Below the pieces are notes generated by a model, which worked only from the letters and a program-made list of their open reading frames with translations, made no database searches and was not told the origin of the DNA. A program made the translations under genes and the position numbers. Below are positions 13,799 to 32,407 of a DNA stretch of 42,574 nt, piece by piece. How positions within the stretch are numbered: position 1 is the first letter of the stretch; every line of letters starts with the position of its first letter. This stretch comes from Nitrospinae bacterium CG11_big_fil_rev_8_21_14_0_20_45_15. Lineage in GTDB: Bacteria > Nitrospinota > Nitrospinia > Nitrospinales > VA-1. The stretch lies in assembly GCA_002787235.1 (NCBI GenBank), contig PCWG01000011.1:1-42574 (forward strand). The letters run 5' to 3'.

Positions 13799-13828
13799 TT
13801 TACAATGACTTGGGTCGACGATTATAAT
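13799..13828 (+). promoter_or_regulatory. Predicted sigma-70 promoter for the acylation module
   Basis: TTTACA (13799-13804, 5 of 6) and a perfect TATAAT (13823-13828) are spaced by 18 nt. The predicted start near 13835 lies between the GT2 stop and the next gene. This would give the methyltransferase-FkbH-ACP-MBOAT-microprotein-SGNH set its own transcription, and supports the TTG at 13882 rather than the one at 13843. Confidence 0.55.
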
Positions 13829-13881
13829 AGAATATCCGCCGGTTGACAGAACCCCCCATTCACACATCGCAGGAAAAACAA

Positions 13882-14793
13882 TTGAACAACCTTGATCAAT
13901 TCATTGAATACTTTAGCGAACACTGCCAAGTCTATTTCCCCGCAATAGAACGAACCCGGGCGCATCATAAGGATTCTTTCGATGCCCTTGGAGGACGTTT
14001 GCTGGGTTGGGCCGTCGATTACCTTGGGGATGGATGGGAAAAAACTCTTGCCGAGGGTTATATGCATTTCCTGATGGATGTCAACCGTTCGCAAATGGAA
14101 TACGAACGACGCGGGCATTATCGCAATAAGTCCTACGACGAAGTGTACACCAGTGTTTACTCCGATCCCGAAGTCATGAACCGATACCACTGGGGCGTAT
14201 ACGTTACAACCTTCGCATGGGAACACCATCTGGAAATTTACGATTTTTTTCAACGCGAATTCATAGCCCGACTGAATCCCGAATCAGGAAGCTTGCTCGA
14301 CCTCGGCTCCGGTTCTGGCGTCTGGAGCTTTCTGACTCTCCATGCATTATCAAACTGGTCGTCCACAGGCATCGATATCAGCCGCCGTTCTGTCGAACTC
14401 GCACAACAAATGGCACCCCAGGCGGAAGCCGAAGGCCGCGTCAACTTTCTGGAAGCCGATGCACTGCAATTTCGCAAATCAGAACCCTGTCAGGCAGGCG
14501 TTTCCTGCTTCCTGCTGGAGCACCTCGAACAACCTCAACAACTCCTGGAAAATTTATCTCAGAATCTTGAACCCGGTGCCTTCGCGTTTGTGACAGGGGC
14601 TTTGACCGCCGCAGAAGTCGATCACATCTCTGAATTTCGTAAAGAATCGGAAATTGTCAATATGGTTGAAAATGCAGGGTTCCGCACGCTTTCCATGCTT
14701 TCTGCCGCTCCACCATCGCACCCGCGCTCGCAAAAATTTCTCCCTCGTTCGCTGGCTCTGGTTTTACAAAAGCGCACGAACGATATCTGGTAA
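13882..14793 (+). CDS. SAM-dependent methyltransferase, class I
   Basis: A 303-aa protein. Residues about 1-125 are a helical region without recognised motifs. The Rossmann-type methyltransferase core follows: motif I LLDLGSGSGVWSF, motif II acidic end in TGIDISRRSVELA, motif III VNFLEADALQF and a SCFLLEHLEQP motif in place of the usual motif IV. The TTG at 13882 has AGGA 7 nt upstream and lies about 47 nt past the predicted transcription start. A TTG at 13843 would add 13 residues. Being first in the FkbH-ACP unit, it may methylate the carrier-bound acyl group or the sugar (inference; FK520-type FkbH clusters include an O-methyltransferase). Confidence 0.8.
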   Translation: MNNLDQFIEYFSEHCQVYFPAIERTRAHHKDSFDALGGRLLGWAVDYLGDGWEKTLAEGYMHFLMDVNRSQMEYERRGHYRNKSYDEVYTSVYSDPEVMNRYHWGVYVTTFAWEHHLEIYDFFQREFIARLNPESGSLLDLGSGSGVWSFLTLHALSNWSSTGIDISRRSVELAQQMAPQAEAEGRVNFLEADALQFRKSEPCQAGVSCFLLEHLEQPQQLLENLSQNLEPGAFAFVTGALTAAEVDHISEFRKESEIVNMVENAGFRTLSMLSAAPPSHPRSQKFLPRSLALVLQKRTNDIW

Positions 14794-14797
14794 CAAT

Positions 14798-16681
14798 ATG
14801 CTCAACGATTTTTTACGAGAACTTTTCACTGGCCAATTCAGCAAAGCACTGGCTCTTCTTGAAAGTGTTGCCAAAGAAACGCCAACGCCCGAAACACTCG
14901 CCATGTTGCGACTGGCTATTTTGCGGCCCGGACACACATTTCTCACTTATCAGCGATTGCTCAATATCTGGTCCTCCTGGGGCAAACCCGCGTTGAAACC
15001 CAACGCAGTCCTTAAAAAAGTCGCCATTGTTGCCGACTTCACCGCCGACCATTTCGCACCGATGATTTCACTGTTCGCAGGTGCTCAGGGAGTTCAGATC
15101 GAAACGCATTTGCCCGGTTACGATTCCGTCGAACAAACGATTCTCGACCCCCATTCGCCCTTGTATGCGAGCCAGCCCGACATCGTGATTCTTTTCTTTT
15201 CCGAACGCTGGTTGAAACGTTATGCGGGGAACTCCGCTCTCTGCAAAACAGAAGATTTGCAACGCGGACAGGAAAGCCTCAGCGGTTTGATTCAAGCTTT
15301 GGAAGCACACAGTCACGCCGATATATTGATCGGCAATCTGCCTCTTTCCGCCTGGCCTCTGGCCGGAGGCATCATCACCAAAGACGGGCTGGCGGGTTGG
15401 AACCAGACCGTCTCGCGCTGGAACGAATGGCTCACAACGTTGACATCCCGGAATCTGCGCATTGTGGATCTGGCCGGGGCTATTTTCAACGCCGGAGGCA
15501 GTGCCGTCCTCGGCCGCACCAATTATCTGCGTGCGCGGATGGCTTATGAAATGCCAGGAACGCTCGCGGTTGCACGCGAACTGGCGGGAGGTCTTGCCCA
15601 TATTTGCGGACGAACGCATCGCGCCTTTGTCTCCGACTGGGACAACACTTTATGGGGAGGCGAGGTTGCCGAGCTGGGAAGTCACGGTGTGCTTTGCGGA
15701 CAGGACTCCCCCGATGCACTGGGATATTTTTTGATTCAGGAATACATCAAATCTCTGACTTGCCTTGGAGTTTTGCTCGCGGGTGTCAGCCGAAACGATC
15801 CAGAGATCCAGAAAATATTTGATGAGAATCACGACCTGCCGCTCAATCTGGGTGATTTTTCGTCCTTGCAGGTGAGCTGGACACCGAAAAGTGATGCCAT
15901 TGGACGCATTTCAAAAGAGCTGGGATTTGGTCCTGAATTCATGGTCTTCATGGATGACAGTCTGTACGAAATCGCACAGGTCTTGTCCGTTCATCCTTAC
16001 ATCGATGTCCTATGGGCCGGTCCCGATCCACAGGGTACGCTGGATCGAATCGCACAATCCCGATTTTTCAATGCGCTTTCACTTTCGGAAGAAGATTTGC
16101 AACGCGGGTCGCATGCCGCTCTTCTCAAAGAACAGCGGGAGTTCAAATCGTCCTTCGCCAATATCGAAGAGTTTCTGCAAGCCATACAGGTGAAATTGAC
16201 ATTCGCCCCACTTGCCGAAAATAATATGGATCGCGTCATTCAGCTGTTCCAGAAGACCAATCAATTCAACTTGACGACACGCCGCCATCGCGAAGACGAT
16301 CTGAAAAATTTCTCAACTCAGGGCGGCTCTGTTTTTGCCATCTCTTACGAAGATTCTTTCGGGTCGCAGGGAATTATTTCTGTCATCGCATTGCAAGCAA
16401 ACGCGAACACGCTTAATATAGAAAGCTGGTTGATGAGTTGTCGGGTACTCAACCGTAGCGTCGAGCAAGCCGTATTTTCTTTTATACGGGAAAAAGCTGA
16501 AGGCAAACCCATCACGGGAGAATATATTCCAACTGAAAAAAACGGGTTGGTTCGCTCCCTGTTTCCCGATCTGGGATTTGCATTGGAAACCACCGACCCG
16601 GGAACCGGTAAGCAAATTTGGCAATGGACAAATAACAATCAAGAACCACCCAAACATTTCGTGGAAATAAAAAAACTATGA
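14798..16681 (+). CDS. FkbH-like HAD/acyltransferase (glyceryl-ACP synthase type)
   Basis: A 627-aa FkbH-family protein. Known members take 1,3-bisphosphoglycerate, remove the phosphate and load the glyceryl group on an acyl carrier protein. Residues about 70-250 match the family's N-terminal SGNH-like region (PGYDSVEQTILDPHSPLY). The HAD phosphatase domain starts with SDWDNTLWGG (D280, D282), then GVSRNDPE, a TPKS lysine and VFMDDS. The C-terminal GNAT-like domain has FQKTNQFNLTTRRH and ends near 610. The ATG at 14798 is 5 nt after the methyltransferase stop. An in-frame start at 14654 would overlap that gene by 140 nt and is rejected. The stop overlaps the ACP start by 4 nt, so enzyme and carrier are translationally coupled. 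Confidence 0.9.
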   Translation: MLNDFLRELFTGQFSKALALLESVAKETPTPETLAMLRLAILRPGHTFLTYQRLLNIWSSWGKPALKPNAVLKKVAIVADFTADHFAPMISLFAGAQGVQIETHLPGYDSVEQTILDPHSPLYASQPDIVILFFSERWLKRYAGNSALCKTEDLQRGQESLSGLIQALEAHSHADILIGNLPLSAWPLAGGIITKDGLAGWNQTVSRWNEWLTTLTSRNLRIVDLAGAIFNAGGSAVLGRTNYLRARMAYEMPGTLAVARELAGGLAHICGRTHRAFVSDWDNTLWGGEVAELGSHGVLCGQDSPDALGYFLIQEYIKSLTCLGVLLAGVSRNDPEIQKIFDENHDLPLNLGDFSSLQVSWTPKSDAIGRISKELGFGPEFMVFMDDSLYEIAQVLSVHPYIDVLWAGPDPQGTLDRIAQSRFFNALSLSEEDLQRGSHAALLKEQREFKSSFANIEEFLQAIQVKLTFAPLAENNMDRVIQLFQKTNQFNLTTRRHREDDLKNFSTQGGSVFAISYEDSFGSQGIISVIALQANANTLNIESWLMSCRVLNRSVEQAVFSFIREKAEGKPITGEYIPTEKNGLVRSLFPDLGFALETTDPGTGKQIWQWTNNNQEPPKHFVEIKKL

Positions 16682-16935
16682 CCGATGCCTCACTGAACAA
16701 CGATGCTCTGGAAAAACTGACAGGTATATTTCGTATTCTGTTTAATGCACCCGACCTTGAGTTGAACGATGATTTGACCGCCAAGGATGTGCCCGGATGG
16801 GACTCTTTCAATCATGTCAATCTTATCATCAATATTGAAGAAGAGTTTGGCGTACGTTTCTCGAATGACGAAGTCGGCAAATTGCAAAACGTCGGCAATT
16901 TAAAATCCCTGCTTGCCGGAAAACTGACCGCCTAA
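16678..16935 (+). CDS. Acyl carrier protein
   Basis: An 85-aa acidic carrier protein. The phosphopantetheine attachment serine is S43 in VPGWDSFNHVNLI. The helix IINIEEEFGVRF that follows is the usual helix II-III region. It overlaps the FkbH stop by 4 nt, so it is the dedicated carrier for that enzyme rather than the fatty-acid ACP. By analogy with DltC it would present its acyl group to the MBOAT encoded next. Confidence 0.93.
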   Translation: MTDASLNNDALEKLTGIFRILFNAPDLELNDDLTAKDVPGWDSFNHVNLIINIEEEFGVRFSNDEVGKLQNVGNLKSLLAGKLTA

Positions 16936-16974
16936 CAATTCGGTCCGTCCGCGCAAAAACTCCCATACCCGCCC

Positions 16975-18168
16975 GTGACTTTCATCAATCCTACGTTTTG
17001 GATCGTTGCTGTCGTCGTCTACATTCTTTTATCGATTGAGACTTCGCACAAGGCAAGCCTGCGTTTTGGGTTCATCAATCTTTTTGCTCTGAATCTTTTA
17101 TTGGGATGGCAAATCGCTCTCGGTGCCCTTCTCGGAGTCACTCTGTTTTGGGGAATGGTCTCTCTCGGCCTGCAATATGGTGCGCAGAAAAATCAAAACA
17201 AGTCCCTTGTCGGGTTTTCAATTCTGGCTGGTGTGACGGTTGTCTTTATTTTTCACAAATTGAATCTGCAACACTCTCCCTGGATCGAAACTCTGCAGGC
17301 CCTTGCGCCATGGATGCGGAGTGACTTTTTCCTCACCTTTCTGGCGGGACTCTCTTTCTCTTATATTTTTGTCCGTTGTGCCGATGCCCTGCACTGTGTG
17401 TTCTGGAAAAATTGCCCTTTGATGGGTCCACTCTCACTCTTTGGCTATCTTTTGCCCTTTCACATGCTCCTTTCTGGCCCCGTCAACGCCTACGAAGAGC
17501 ATCTGGAGATGGATCGTGATGCGGAACCGGAATCGGTCCCTTCACTCGACCGTGTTCTGTTGATCCTCAACGCCATCACGACGGGCTTGTTGTACAAATT
17601 TGTCGTTGCAGAGAGCTTGCGTACTTATTTTTACGGAGCAAATGGAGAGATGACCGTTTCCAATTGGGGCGATTCTGCTATTCTGGCACTCTATGTTTTT
17701 TTCGACTTCGCCGGATATTCCCGCGTCGCTCGTGGACTCGGCTTATTGTATCGCGTGCCCACACCTGAAAATTTTTCAGCCCCCTTTTTGTCGGTATCCG
17801 TCACCGACTTCTGGACCCGGTGGCATATGTCGATGGGACAATTTGTGCGCAGGAATTTGTTCACCCCCATCCAATTGAATCTTGTACGTGCGGTAGGTAT
17901 TAAAAATGCCGGATGGGTGAGCCTTGTCACCATGGTCGTTTCTTTCGGATTTGTGGGCCTTTGGCATCGCATCAGTTGGACCTGGATACTTTGGGGTGTG
18001 GCAATGGGACTGCTCATGGCATTGGAAAAACATGTACAAACTTTTGCCATGCGCAAAGGCTGGAACCGATCGCCCTGGATCGGGCACGCCCTGCCCTGGC
18101 TCGGCCCTGTTTATACCAACACAGTCTTGATAATCAGCGTCCGCTTTGTCGCTGAGGAGATTTTCTAA
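16975..18168 (+). CDS. MBOAT acyltransferase lacking the C-terminal shuttle motif
   Basis: A 397-aa multi-pass inner-membrane O-acyltransferase with about ten hydrophobic helices. MBOAT motifs are LLSGPVNAYEEH, FFDFAGYSRVARGLGLL, DFWTRWHMSMGQFVRRN (H284) and GLWHRISWTWILWG (catalytic H331). It is about 95 residues shorter than the other MBOAT in this window (29636-31117) and ends RFVAEEIF, without the F-x-Y-x-x-F hexapeptide that closes AlgI-like proteins. That motif is instead on the microprotein encoded next, whose ATG overlaps this stop (TAATG). The start is GTG at 16975. It would move the acyl group from the ACP across the membrane, as DltB does. Confidence 0.92.
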   Translation: MTFINPTFWIVAVVVYILLSIETSHKASLRFGFINLFALNLLLGWQIALGALLGVTLFWGMVSLGLQYGAQKNQNKSLVGFSILAGVTVVFIFHKLNLQHSPWIETLQALAPWMRSDFFLTFLAGLSFSYIFVRCADALHCVFWKNCPLMGPLSLFGYLLPFHMLLSGPVNAYEEHLEMDRDAEPESVPSLDRVLLILNAITTGLLYKFVVAESLRTYFYGANGEMTVSNWGDSAILALYVFFDFAGYSRVARGLGLLYRVPTPENFSAPFLSVSVTDFWTRWHMSMGQFVRRNLFTPIQLNLVRAVGIKNAGWVSLVTMVVSFGFVGLWHRISWTWILWGVAMGLLMALEKHVQTFAMRKGWNRSPWIGHALPWLGPVYTNTVLIISVRFVAEEIF

Positions 18169-18320
18169 TGAATGAAGAACGCTTTTTTTACATCAAACTC
18201 AAGACCCCGCTTTCTATCTGGCAAATCACCGGACTTCTAAGCTGGATTCTGATCAAATTGACCTTGATCGCCTCCATGATCCATCAATCCGCAGGAGAAT
18301 TTATCTATGCCGGATTCTAA
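18168..18320 (+). CDS. DltX-like membrane microprotein with C-terminal acyl-shuttle hexapeptide
   Basis: A 50-aa protein, easily missed for its size. The N-terminus is charged (MNEERFFYIKLK). One hydrophobic helix follows (about 18-38, WQITGLLSWILIKLTLIASM). The chain ends exactly at FIYAGF, with tyrosine Y47. C-terminal F-x-Y-x-x-F hexapeptides are the acyl-shuttle motif known from DltX and from AlgI-like MBOATs, where the tyrosine carries the acyl ester from the MBOAT to the SGNH transferase. The ATG overlaps the MBOAT stop as TAATG, and the reading frame overlaps the SGNH start by 14 nt, so it is coupled on both sides. The N-in/C-out topology expected for the role fits the basic residues before the helix. 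Confidence 0.8.
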   Translation: MNEERFFYIKLKTPLSIWQITGLLSWILIKLTLIASMIHQSAGEFIYAGF

Positions 18321-19437
18321 ACCCGAATCAGGAAGCAAGATTGTCAACATCACCATCGTCCTGAGTATCGCCATTGCCTATGCGGTGATCGCTTATGCGG
18401 TCGATAAATTTTCCGGTTCAGCGGGGCCCGGACAATGGTTGAATCAAAATAAAATCATGCAAGAACACCGCGTCGAACTGCGCGAAAAAGTCGAGCGCGA
18501 CCCACATTTCAAAAATGTCGATCGTGAAGCGTACATTCGGGAGATGGAACAAATCATCACCATGAAACAAAAACGCAATCTCGGCAACTGGGTTTCGTAC
18601 AAATCTTTCACACCCAATGTTAGGGGCCAATACGTTCACACCAATGATTTTGGGATGCGTTCCGGTCTCAGCCTGCGTGAGATGGCTGAGAAAGCCCGCG
18701 CCAATAATCAAAAAGGAATCCGCAACGTCCTTCTGCTGGGTGGCTCGGTCGCGTTTGGTTATGGATCGACGGACGATCAACAAACCATTTCAGGATTCAT
18801 GAATGAACTCTTGAAGGGGGAAAAATTTGAGGTCTTCAATCTCGCACAAGGCGGCTTCAACAGCTATATGGATTTATTCAGCCTGAGTGCGATTGGCTGG
18901 CAATTGGAACCCGATATCATCATTGCCATGGAAGGTTACGCCGATGTGTATCATCTGGCCTACGAATCGAAAGGTGGCAACCTCGCCTGGGGATTGTGGA
19001 GCGGGATAGAGCAAGAAAAAAAACCGGAATTCGCTTTGGATTTTCAGTACCACAATCTGGAAGCCATCTGCAAATTGGGAACCGGGCCGGAACGGCAGGT
19101 CATTTTAGCGTTGCAACCCTTGAGCGGTTTCGAAAATGACAGTAAAGTCGAAAATGAAAAGATCAATAAAATGTGGGGTTATTATCCGAAAATCAGGACC
19201 TTGTTTGAGACGGTATCGAAAAATAACAACGCACATTTTGTCGATCTATCCCCTCTGTTCAAAGATGAAAGTCGAGCAGACATCAACTTTTTCGACAAGG
19301 CTCATCTCACTGTCACCGGACAGAAAAAAGTCGCTCAGGCTCTGGCAACGGCGGTTATTGAGGCAGGGAGTCGTAACGAATCTTCCGAAACTGCATTCAC
19401 TCAGCGGCAAAAAATAATCGCCGATATCCTGCAATGA
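18307..19437 (+). CDS. Membrane-anchored SGNH acyltransferase, DltD-like role
   Basis: A 376-aa protein. One N-terminal membrane helix (about 12-32) anchors an extracytoplasmic SGNH domain. The nucleophile is S147 in LLLGGSVAFGYG. The glycine block is NLAQGGFNSY. The third block reads MEGYADV, with alanine where SGNH enzymes normally have Asn. The catalytic D330 and H333 are in FFDKAHLTVTG. AGGAG lies 8 nt before the ATG, inside the microprotein gene. Following an MBOAT and a shuttle microprotein, it is the likely final transferase that takes the acyl group from the microprotein tyrosine and puts it on the glycan, as DltD or AlgX does (inference). Confidence 0.88.
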   Translation: MPDSKPESGSKIVNITIVLSIAIAYAVIAYAVDKFSGSAGPGQWLNQNKIMQEHRVELREKVERDPHFKNVDREAYIREMEQIITMKQKRNLGNWVSYKSFTPNVRGQYVHTNDFGMRSGLSLREMAEKARANNQKGIRNVLLLGGSVAFGYGSTDDQQTISGFMNELLKGEKFEVFNLAQGGFNSYMDLFSLSAIGWQLEPDIIIAMEGYADVYHLAYESKGGNLAWGLWSGIEQEKKPEFALDFQYHNLEAICKLGTGPERQVILALQPLSGFENDSKVENEKINKMWGYYPKIRTLFETVSKNNNAHFVDLSPLFKDESRADINFFDKAHLTVTGQKKVAQALATAVIEAGSRNESSETAFTQRQKIIADILQ

Positions 19438-29635: not shown

Positions 29636-31117
29636 ATGGGGTTCAATTCTTACGCTTTTATCTTTTTATTCCTGCCCTTTGTTTGGACGCTTTTCTATCT
29701 GATCGCCCGAACGAAGGGGCCTGCTGTGCTGTGGCTGGTCGGTGCATCGTTTGTCTTTTACGCATGGAATGATCCCCTGCTGATTTCTGTGATGGGCGTA
29801 TCCTTGCTGGTGAATTACGCTTTTGCTTTGAAAATGAAGCCGGAGTCTACAGAACTTTCCACAAGCGGAAAACGTTTTTTCCTTCTGGGAGTGACTCTCA
29901 ATCTCGCGCTGTTGTCGTTTTTCAAATTAGCCGCTTCTTATGGAGGGCATTATCAAATCGCCTTTGAGTCGAGTCTCCAGGTAGGCTTTCCTCTGGCTCT
30001 CTCCTTTTTAACTTTTCAGCAGATACTTTTTCTATCGGAACTGAAAAATGGAAACACAGAGAAACCACGATTTTTGAATTACTGCCTATACATGATTTTT
30101 TTCCCACAACTGCTGGCGGGCCCCCTTGTCAAACCTCAACATTTTTTTCAGCAGTTCGCCGATGATAAATTTTTCAAAATTCGATGGGATTTTATCCCTG
30201 CAGGCTTGACTCTGATCGCACTGGGTCTTTTTAAAAAAGTATCTCTTGCCGATCCCATCGCCCGTTTTGCTGACTCGGCTTTCAATGCCGCACAAGCAGG
30301 CGCAGTCCTCACAACGGGTGAAGCCTGGAGCGGCGCACTGTCTTTCAGCTTTCAAATTTACTTTGATCTCTCAGGCTACGCCGATATGGCAATGGGAATC
30401 GCGCTTCTTTTCGGCCTGCGCCTGCCATGGAATTTCAATTCTCCCTACAAAGCCGACAGTCTCATTGAGTTCTGGCGGCGTTGGCATATCACCCTGTCTC
30501 AATTTGCTCGTGATTTTATATACATCCCGCTGGGCGGCTCTAAAAACAGTTTTTTAATGCAGGGGATTTGCCTGTTAAGCGTGATGACTTTAACCGGACT
30601 TTGGCACGGTGCGGGAATCACTTTCATTGCATGGGGGATTCTGCACGGATTCTTCTTGATCGTGAATCATGCCTGGAGACGTATCTCTCCGGAAAAAGTT
30701 TCAGCAGATCAAGCCGTCTGGGTGCTATGGACAAAGCGTTTCGCAACATTTATCAGTCTTGCTCTGCTTTGGGTCGTATTTCGCGCCGAGAATATCGACA
30801 CCGCTCTTTCTATGTGGAAGTCTATGGCGGGGATGCAAACTAATGTCGTAACGGGAATTAATAACATTAAAATCGGTGAAGACCGTTTGTGGTTTCTTGC
30901 CGTTCTGGTATGGTTGGCCCCGAACTCTCGTGAATGGATGGTTCGTTTTTTTTCATCCATTGACCCGACACACAGTTCCAAGGCAGAGAAATCAATATCC
31001 AGCGCAAAGTATGTCTGGCGTTGCAATGAATACTGGGCCGCATTTCTGGCAATGCTTTTTATCGTCGCGTTACTGCAACTACCCGAAAGTCGGGAATTTA
31101 TTTATATCCAATTTTAG
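29636..31117 (+). CDS. AlgI-like MBOAT acyltransferase with fused shuttle motif
   Basis: A 493-aa polytopic inner-membrane O-acyltransferase of normal AlgI/PatA length. Motifs are QLLAGPLVKPQHF, YFDLSGYADMAMGIALLFG, EFWRRWHITLSQFARDFIYIPLGG (H284) and GLWHGAGITFIAWGILHG (catalytic H324). The last membrane helix (about 465-482) is followed by the C-terminal hexapeptide FIYIQF (Y490). This is the acyl-shuttle motif that in this branch is fused to the MBOAT. It is followed 24 nt later by its likely partner, an SGNH-like protein. Compare the first MBOAT (16975-18168), where the helix and motif are on a separate microprotein. Confidence 0.93.
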   Translation: MGFNSYAFIFLFLPFVWTLFYLIARTKGPAVLWLVGASFVFYAWNDPLLISVMGVSLLVNYAFALKMKPESTELSTSGKRFFLLGVTLNLALLSFFKLAASYGGHYQIAFESSLQVGFPLALSFLTFQQILFLSELKNGNTEKPRFLNYCLYMIFFPQLLAGPLVKPQHFFQQFADDKFFKIRWDFIPAGLTLIALGLFKKVSLADPIARFADSAFNAAQAGAVLTTGEAWSGALSFSFQIYFDLSGYADMAMGIALLFGLRLPWNFNSPYKADSLIEFWRRWHITLSQFARDFIYIPLGGSKNSFLMQGICLLSVMTLTGLWHGAGITFIAWGILHGFFLIVNHAWRRISPEKVSADQAVWVLWTKRFATFISLALLWVVFRAENIDTALSMWKSMAGMQTNVVTGINNIKIGEDRLWFLAVLVWLAPNSREWMVRFFSSIDPTHSSKAEKSISSAKYVWRCNEYWAAFLAMLFIVALLQLPESREFIYIQF

Positions 31118-31141
31118 GCAATCAAGACTCTTTTAAAAACG

Positions 31142-32407
31142 ATGAAAGACGCGACCAAATTTATTTTCGTTTTCACGCTATGTGTCCTGCAGGTATTGAT
31201 TGTTATTGGCGCGTTGAACTGGTTTGTGGACCCCTACTCCATTCATCGTTCGCCGCCAGAAAATCCGCGTCAACCGGTGTGGATGTCGAAGCAATTGCGC
31301 ATAGCCAAAGCTCTTTATGTGCGCAAACTCGCCCCCAAAGGAATCGTTCTAGGGGCCTCAACCGCACAGCTCGCTATCGATCCCAGCCATCCCGGCTGGG
31401 ACAACGAAATCCAACCACGTTACAATCTGGCACTGCCGGGAGCGAATATGTATGAGAACCTCCGGTACTATCAGCATGCCCGTGCCAACGCCCCTTTACA
31501 GAAAGTCCTTCTGGGACTGGATTTTGTTGCCTTCAATCATTTCACCCCCTTGAGCGACGATTTCAAAGAAGGCTTGATCGCTTCTGATAAAGAAGGAAAC
31601 ATAAAATCATCTTTCCTTATGAAAACCGCGATGCCTCTGCTTTCGCTCAATGCCGTGACCGCCAGCCAAAAGAAATTTTTTGCACGAAGAAAAGAAACGC
31701 ATTGGGCAAATGGGCTGGAAATTCCTGAAGAAACCGGCAAGCGTGATTGGCGCGAGGCTATGTTGGGATCGGCTGATGGTTATGTCACACGTCTTCTCTT
31801 GCCGCCGCCCAGCCATCGTTTTTGTCTGGAGGATTCCAGTACGCCGGGTTCTGCACTGGGACGATTAGAAACCCTCTTGCGTACAGCGGCAACTGATGGA
31901 ACCGATATTCGCCTGTTCATCCAACCGTCGCACGCATTTTTGATGGAAGCTTTGCAAGCGACCGGATACTGGGACGATTACGAAATCTGGGAAAGAAAAC
32001 TCGTGGCATTGATCGAAAAAATCAACACAGAAGTCTTACCAGAGAAAAAAATCCTGTTGTGGGATTTCAGTGGATACAACACCTTCACGGCCGAAGCACT
32101 GGCCAAAGACAGCACAACGGCTATGAAATGGTACTGGGACACGGGTCATTATAAAAAAGATTTGGGCGACCGGGTACAAGATCGCATCTTCGGTTTAAAC
32201 CCTCCTGACAGAGAAGGGTCAGAGGATTTTGGAGTCTTGATCGATGCGAACAACATCGACTCACACCTGAAAAGCATTGCAGAAAAGCGGAGTGCCTATT
32301 TGGAAACACAGCGCGAAGACATTCAGGAATTGAAGACACGGATCAGCAACTCGACCAAGAATATCCCGTCTTACGATTGCGCCCGGCTCAGGGAAAGCCG
32401 ATTTTAA
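31142..32407 (+). CDS. SGNH-like acyltransferase partner of the AlgI-like MBOAT
   Basis: A 421-aa protein. One N-terminal membrane helix (about 7-26) anchors an extracytoplasmic domain that begins NWFVDPY, a common opening in MBOAT-partner proteins. SGNH-type features are the nucleophile S73 in IVLGASTAQLAID, the NLALPGANMYEN glycine block and D333 with H336 in WYWDTGHYKKDLG. AlgJ, AlgX and PatB play this role in alginate and peptidoglycan acetylation. The acyl group and target glycan here are unknown. The C-terminus (about 365-421) is charged and helical. It converges with a tiny minus-strand membrane gene. Confidence 0.82.
   Translation: MKDATKFIFVFTLCVLQVLIVIGALNWFVDPYSIHRSPPENPRQPVWMSKQLRIAKALYVRKLAPKGIVLGASTAQLAIDPSHPGWDNEIQPRYNLALPGANMYENLRYYQHARANAPLQKVLLGLDFVAFNHFTPLSDDFKEGLIASDKEGNIKSSFLMKTAMPLLSLNAVTASQKKFFARRKETHWANGLEIPEETGKRDWREAMLGSADGYVTRLLLPPPSHRFCLEDSSTPGSALGRLETLLRTAATDGTDIRLFIQPSHAFLMEALQATGYWDDYEIWERKLVALIEKINTEVLPEKKILLWDFSGYNTFTAEALAKDSTTAMKWYWDTGHYKKDLGDRVQDRIFGLNPPDREGSEDFGVLIDANNIDSHLKSIAEKRSAYLETQREDIQELKTRISNSTKNIPSYDCARLRESRF

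Follow-up and report, generated by a model that had tools for sequence, protein, structure and literature searches.

A putative Dlt-like MBOAT–microprotein–SGNH acylation machine with an FkbH protein in place of DltA in a Nitrospinae glycan locus

The Dlt system (DltA-DltB-DltC-DltD-DltX), which carries out D-alanylation of teichoic acids, combines an adenylating enzyme, DltA, with a carrier protein, a short MBOAT, an SGNH partner and a separate single-transmembrane (TM) microprotein ending in FxYxxF. The PatA/PatB and AlgI-type systems also consist of an MBOAT and an SGNH protein, with the identical hexapeptide shuttle motif fused to a longer MBOAT, and acetyl-CoA is the donor for PatA. The acyl-tyrosine shuttle has been established for DltX and PatA (PMC12148441). 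A 2025 study has described non-Dlt MBOAT/SGNH pathways as having neither a carrier protein nor a DltX-like microprotein (PMC12148441). In polyketide pathways, which most of the described FkbH proteins serve, FkbH loads glyceryl from 1,3-bisphosphoglycerate onto a stand-alone acyl carrier protein (ACP) (PMC7489565). Such loading occurs in the tetronate and methoxymalonyl polyketide pathways, sometimes with an O-methyltransferase.

Here we describe a gene set in a window that comprises the whole analysed stretch of DNA, 42,574 nucleotides of contig PCWG01000011.1 of Nitrospinae bacterium CG11_big_fil_rev_8_21_14_0_20_45_15. The set very probably encodes a carrier-dependent MBOAT–microprotein–SGNH acylation machine for an envelope glycan, which would be Dlt-like with FkbH serving for DltA. 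At the level of sequence, the parts, their linkage, the active-site residues and their joint conservation are established. Like Dlt, the set has a carrier protein, a short MBOAT and an SGNH partner in one operon, a separate single-TM microprotein ending in FxYxxF at 14 of 14 loci, and an MBOAT that is nearest to DltB and has the same two histidines. Unlike Dlt, it has FkbH rather than the adenylating DltA, its MBOAT lies in a deep clade of its own and reaches 137 bits where the DltB model requires 375, the gene order differs, a methyltransferase is usually added, and the set sits in a Gram-negative glycan locus. It shares the MBOAT, the SGNH protein and the hexapeptide with PatA/PatB and AlgI-type systems, but the motif sits on a microprotein of its own, and there is a carrier protein where PatA uses acetyl-CoA. 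It also shares an FkbH-family loader and a stand-alone ACP with the polyketide systems, but here they occur without polyketide synthase or dehydrogenases, and the acyl group would be passed through the membrane and onto a glycan.

Layout of the gene set

Open reading frame analysis and profile searches place six genes on the same strand at the sites claimed by the first-pass annotation, preceded by a candidate promoter:

13799..13828, + strand: sigma-70-like promoter site, TTTACA-18-TATAAT, an 11/12 consensus match only
13882..14793, + strand: SAM methyltransferase, 303 aa (Methyltransf_25/23 profiles)
14798..16681, + strand: FkbH, 627 aa, the proposed acyl loader (TIGR01686, FkbH_N)
16678..16935, + strand: acyl carrier protein, 85 aa, GWDS with Ser43, putative DltC role (weak ACP profile matches)
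16975..18168, + strand: short MBOAT, 397 aa, putative DltB role (PF03062)
18168..18320, + strand: single-TM microprotein, 50 aa, ending in FIYAGF with Y47, putative DltX role (tail kept in relatives, Ka/Ks)
18307..19437, + strand: membrane-anchored SGNH protein, 376 aa, Ser147/Asp330/His333, putative DltD role (GDSL profiles)

The best start of the methyltransferase is TTG at 13882 with AGGA just upstream, and its stop at 14793 is followed by the FkbH ATG at 14798. The ACP ATG at 16678 overlaps the FkbH stop at 16681, the ACP stop at 16935 is separated by a 39-nt gap from the MBOAT GTG at 16975, the MBOAT stop and the microprotein ATG overlap at 18168 as TAATG, and the microprotein, with its stop at 18320, overlaps the SGNH gene, with its ATG at 18307, by 14 nt. 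The open reading frames, the junctions and the profile searches agree with each gene name of the first-pass annotation, which had read the set as joined mostly by overlapping stops and starts. That annotation had also called the set promoter-led. The site at 13799-13828 exists, but the region has 10 sigma-70-like sites against 6.1 expected, so that a promoter at this position is plausible rather than proven.

The MBOAT clade and its occurrence

The best solved relative of the MBOAT is DltB, both by sequence (6bug, 8jem) and by predicted fold (TM 0.74/0.71; model pLDDT 76). H284 and H331 are invariant in the relatives compared and align, in an ungapped stretch of the sequence match, with positions 289 and 336 of DltB, which we take to be the active-site histidines of DltB. 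The protein ends at 397 aa with the C-terminus VAEEIF and does not have the extra C-terminal segment on which MBOATs of the AlgI/PatA type carry the motif. A tree of 84 MBOATs resolves three groups (each 100/99), namely the 14 members of the set, the DltB-type proteins and the fused-type proteins, and the window MBOAT falls below the cut-off of the curated DltB model (136.9 bits against 375). The MBOAT is therefore DltB-like in build and yet not a DltB. A profile search of 13 carrier genomes found no DltA above the TIGR01734 cut-off, and FkbH occupies the operon instead, ruling out a genuine Dlt system. The separate MBOAT clade (100/99), together with the lack of DltA above the cut-off in the carriers, indicates that the set is, as judged from its genes, a third lineage of MBOAT/SGNH systems, one that has both carrier protein and microprotein. 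DltX-DltA-DltB sets are also seen in Gram-negative phyla, namely in Verrucomicrobiota (L059, L078) and Gemmatimonadaceae (L101), and so a Gram-negative microprotein by itself is not new.

Profile scans of genome contigs detected this MBOAT, accompanied by a microprotein that ends in the motif, in a MAG labelled Desulfobacteraceae UBA2156 (L040), in two Planctomycetota (L041 and L042) and in Bradyrhizobium zhengyangense (L043), and whole-genome searches in the phylum of L041 added three further loci (L150/G109, L151/G244 and L152/G432). FkbH and ACP lie beside the MBOAT at every locus with a long enough contig, and the FkbH-ACP-MBOAT sets, for which the first-pass annotation had proposed a search, recur in four phyla. 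The set is rare: it is carried by 6 of 77 genomes of the window's phylum, 4 of 392 of the phylum of L041 and 1 of 385 of the Bradyrhizobium class. Sampling 398 genomes from the phylum of Bradyrhizobium and 395 from that of UBA2156 yielded no carriers beyond the known ones. This patchy occurrence suggests horizontal spread. The Bradyrhizobium copy looks damaged, with a short MBOAT and a broken SGNH frame. A scan for DMSO-reductase-II/Nxr-type proteins in the 77 genomes of the window's phylum yielded sub-threshold hits alone.

Loader, cargo and acceptor

The window FkbH matches TIGR01686 with E=3e-65 and 220 bits, exceeding the curated cut-off of 146.65. It retains DWDNT, which corresponds to the HAD motif DxDxT, as well as K364, the DD pair and C548, the MSCR cysteine found in every FkbH compared. 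The change from VCSKN to GVSRN, which removes the Cys of motif II, was considered as possible evidence of an inactive FkbH and rejected, because this position varies among FkbHs (C, N, V, I, S, A) and its absence in the window FkbH therefore means little. The protein departs from the canonical sequence at DDNPxER, which becomes DDSLYEI, and at FGDxG, which becomes FGSQG. FkbHs of the window's phylum have the same replacements, with EDNIFEI instead of DDSLYEI in G027, and the changed residues may line the probable substrate pocket. In G244, G432 and Bradyrhizobium, MBOATs of this clade are accompanied by FkbHs with canonical residues, so that FkbH is a constant element of the system and the FkbH subfamily varies between lineages. 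The ACP matches its profiles weakly; the GWDS site is present, and GWDS[FL]NH is conserved in the ACPs of relatives. Methyltransferases that belong to the family of the window's enzyme and align with it outside the SAM domain too are encoded at G001, G002, G004, L042 (two), L150, L151, L153 and L156, and none was found in the locus neighbourhoods of the G027 and G432 copies. It is possible that this enzyme O-methylates the carrier-bound acyl group.

Our best guess for the cargo is glyceryl or O-methylglyceryl. Since DDSLYEI and FGSQG take the place of canonical residues, the cargo may differ from glyceryl. If the FkbH of the window's clade has shifted to another phosphorylated hydroxy-acid, the same relay would build an ester other than glyceryl, and the methyltransferase would act on the acid or on the glycan. 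The changes around DD and FG in this clade, set against the canonical copies of G244, G432 and Bradyrhizobium, make this a real possibility, but the clade scores above the FkbH cut-off and retains TNQFNLTTRR, the HAD residues and the Cys of MSCR, and we consider such a shift less likely than not.

The acceptor is likely a surface glycan and probably the product of the flanking glycosyltransferases. The window encodes four proteins of the GT9 heptosyltransferase family, several other glycosyltransferases, two PMT-family proteins and sugar epimerases. Genes for a PfkB-cytidylyltransferase protein and for the chain-length protein Wzz adjoin the G027 copy, and the Bradyrhizobium copy adjoins a glycosyltransferase and a DegT aminotransferase. 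The two PMT-type transferases, as possible protein glycosylation enzymes, would fit an acceptor other than LPS or O-polysaccharide, such as a glycan attached to protein, a lipid or a small molecule that is secreted. Such an acceptor is unlikely, however, because heptosyltransferases and other glycosyltransferases flank the set and because of the neighbours of the G027 and Bradyrhizobium copies. The reading that FkbH and ACP serve secondary metabolism, such as a polyketide pathway, and merely adjoin the MBOAT/SGNH pair, to which the role of most described FkbHs (PMC7489565) might point, is highly improbable and can be set aside, since the annotated part of the window has no polyketide genes and the MBOAT keeps its FkbH and ACP companions in four phyla, even where genes are reordered.

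FkbH/ACP genes adjoin long fused-motif MBOATs as well (L154, L155, L156 minus strand), suggesting that carrier-fed fused MBOATs, which may take acyl-ACP, also exist.

The microprotein and the proposed relay

The microprotein matched no Pfam or NCBIfam family in profile searches. A TM micro-ORF ending in F-x-Y-x-x-F is present at all 14 loci of the MBOAT clade, compared with 0 of 120 in the opposite-strand control; it lies within 2.6 kb of the MBOAT at 13 of them and after FkbH at the remaining one (G027). In the same-phylum relatives G001, G002, G004, G021 (two contigs) and G027, it is a single-TM protein of 49-51 aa ending in F[IV]YAGF. Across the loci, the tails are FIYAGF, FVYAGF, FIYQGF, FVYGGF, FLYQGF and FFYQAF, so the Tyr and both flanking Phe residues do not vary. 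Ka/Ks between the window and G002, G001 and G004 is 0.015, 0.10 and 0.12, respectively, and reaches 0.32 in other pairs (0.015-0.32 overall), the values of the wider pairs being rough because synonymous sites are near saturation. These data indicate that the microprotein is a real protein under purifying selection. Although the last codons in the window overlap the SGNH start by 14 nt, there is practically no chance that the FIYAGF tail is an artefact of that start and its ribosome-binding site, because the order ACP-MBOAT-SGNH-FkbH-microprotein in G027 leaves the tail clear of any SGNH start with the motif kept, the two genes just touch in L041 and L043 with the motif kept, and Ka/Ks is likewise low upstream of the overlap.

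A predicted model of the SGNH protein (pLDDT 69) shows the fold of SGNH hydrolases behind a membrane helix at the N-terminus, and its structural matches are general esterases, not specifically DltD or PatB. Among 12 sequences, Asp330 and His333 are invariant and Ser147 is nearly so.

These parts suggest the following relay. FkbH would take an activated phospho-acid, most likely 1,3-bisphosphoglycerate, dephosphorylate it and load the acyl group, D-glyceryl or close kin, onto the phosphopantetheine of ACP Ser43, where the methyltransferase may O-methylate it. The loaded ACP would dock at the cytoplasmic face of the MBOAT, which would hand the acyl group to the microprotein at Y47, within its FIYAGF tail outside the cytoplasm. 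From there the tail would present the acyl group to Ser147/Asp330/His333 of the SGNH protein for transfer to the surface glycan. The first-pass annotation had proposed a relay like DltBCD-X with FkbH replacing DltA, and this architecture is well supported: the three tests set for it, concerning conservation of the microprotein among relatives, the C-terminal Tyr in homologues and membership of FkbH/ACP in an unrelated polyketide pathway, all left it standing. The glyceryl-type ester on LPS or another surface glycan that the annotation also proposed is the more tentative part.

A literature search returned no relevant paper joining FkbH with MBOAT, O-antigen or exopolysaccharide, and no paper on an MBOAT with SGNH and an acyl carrier protein, so far as this literature shows making the FkbH-loaded lineage new. 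We propose tentatively, at not far short of even confidence, that this third lineage attaches glyceryl or O-methylglyceryl, derived from 1,3-bisphosphoglycerate, as esters to surface glycans of Gram-negative bacteria, a pathway not described before. Since a carrier protein and a microprotein occur in a separate, non-Dlt MBOAT clade in four phyla, the generalisation that such pathways have neither (PMC12148441) does not hold. The parts look modular, as FkbH/ACP are also found with fused-motif MBOATs. If the cargo is glyceryl, the system would link central glycolysis to envelope decoration, and FkbH would gain a role outside natural products.

Microprotein helix and neighbouring genes

Codon 30 of the microprotein gene (window 18168-18320) encodes a lysine within the predicted TM helix, and the alignment shows that this lysine is invariant in 11 of 11 aligned core members. 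The microprotein frame is intact in the Bradyrhizobium zhengyangense copy (L153:13219-15456), where the MBOAT is short by about 80 N-terminal residues and the SGNH frame appears broken; this copy looks to be decaying or to carry a sequence error. Neighbours of the set in other loci that might modify the acyl group are:

L152:10186-10641, glyoxalase_4
L153:7814-8260, glyoxalase_4
L150:10140-11186, transketolase-like
L153:12254-12904, transketolase-like
L042:2883-3785 (Planctomycetota), PhyH dioxygenase

MBOATs with a fused motif

FkbH, ACP and SGNH genes accompany long MBOATs ending in the fused motif (FIYFQF, FLYFQF) at three loci:

L154:6470-11826
L155:441-6506
L156:2371-5135, minus strand

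MaoC-like and SDR genes are additionally present in the L155 locus, and FkbH of L156 is fragmented. The window itself encodes a second MBOAT of fused type:

29636-32407, second MBOAT, then a 421-aa protein

This MBOAT is 493 aa long with the C-terminus REFIYIQF; the 421-aa protein, which has no match in Pfam, may be its partner.

MBOATs with an adenylation-type ligase

ACP, an amino-acid-adenylation-type ligase and an MBOAT of 565-567 aa without the hexapeptide are encoded at:

L157:5938-9581, minus strand, window's own genome
L158:4857-8452

These genes are a further carrier-linked MBOAT set within the window's phylum.
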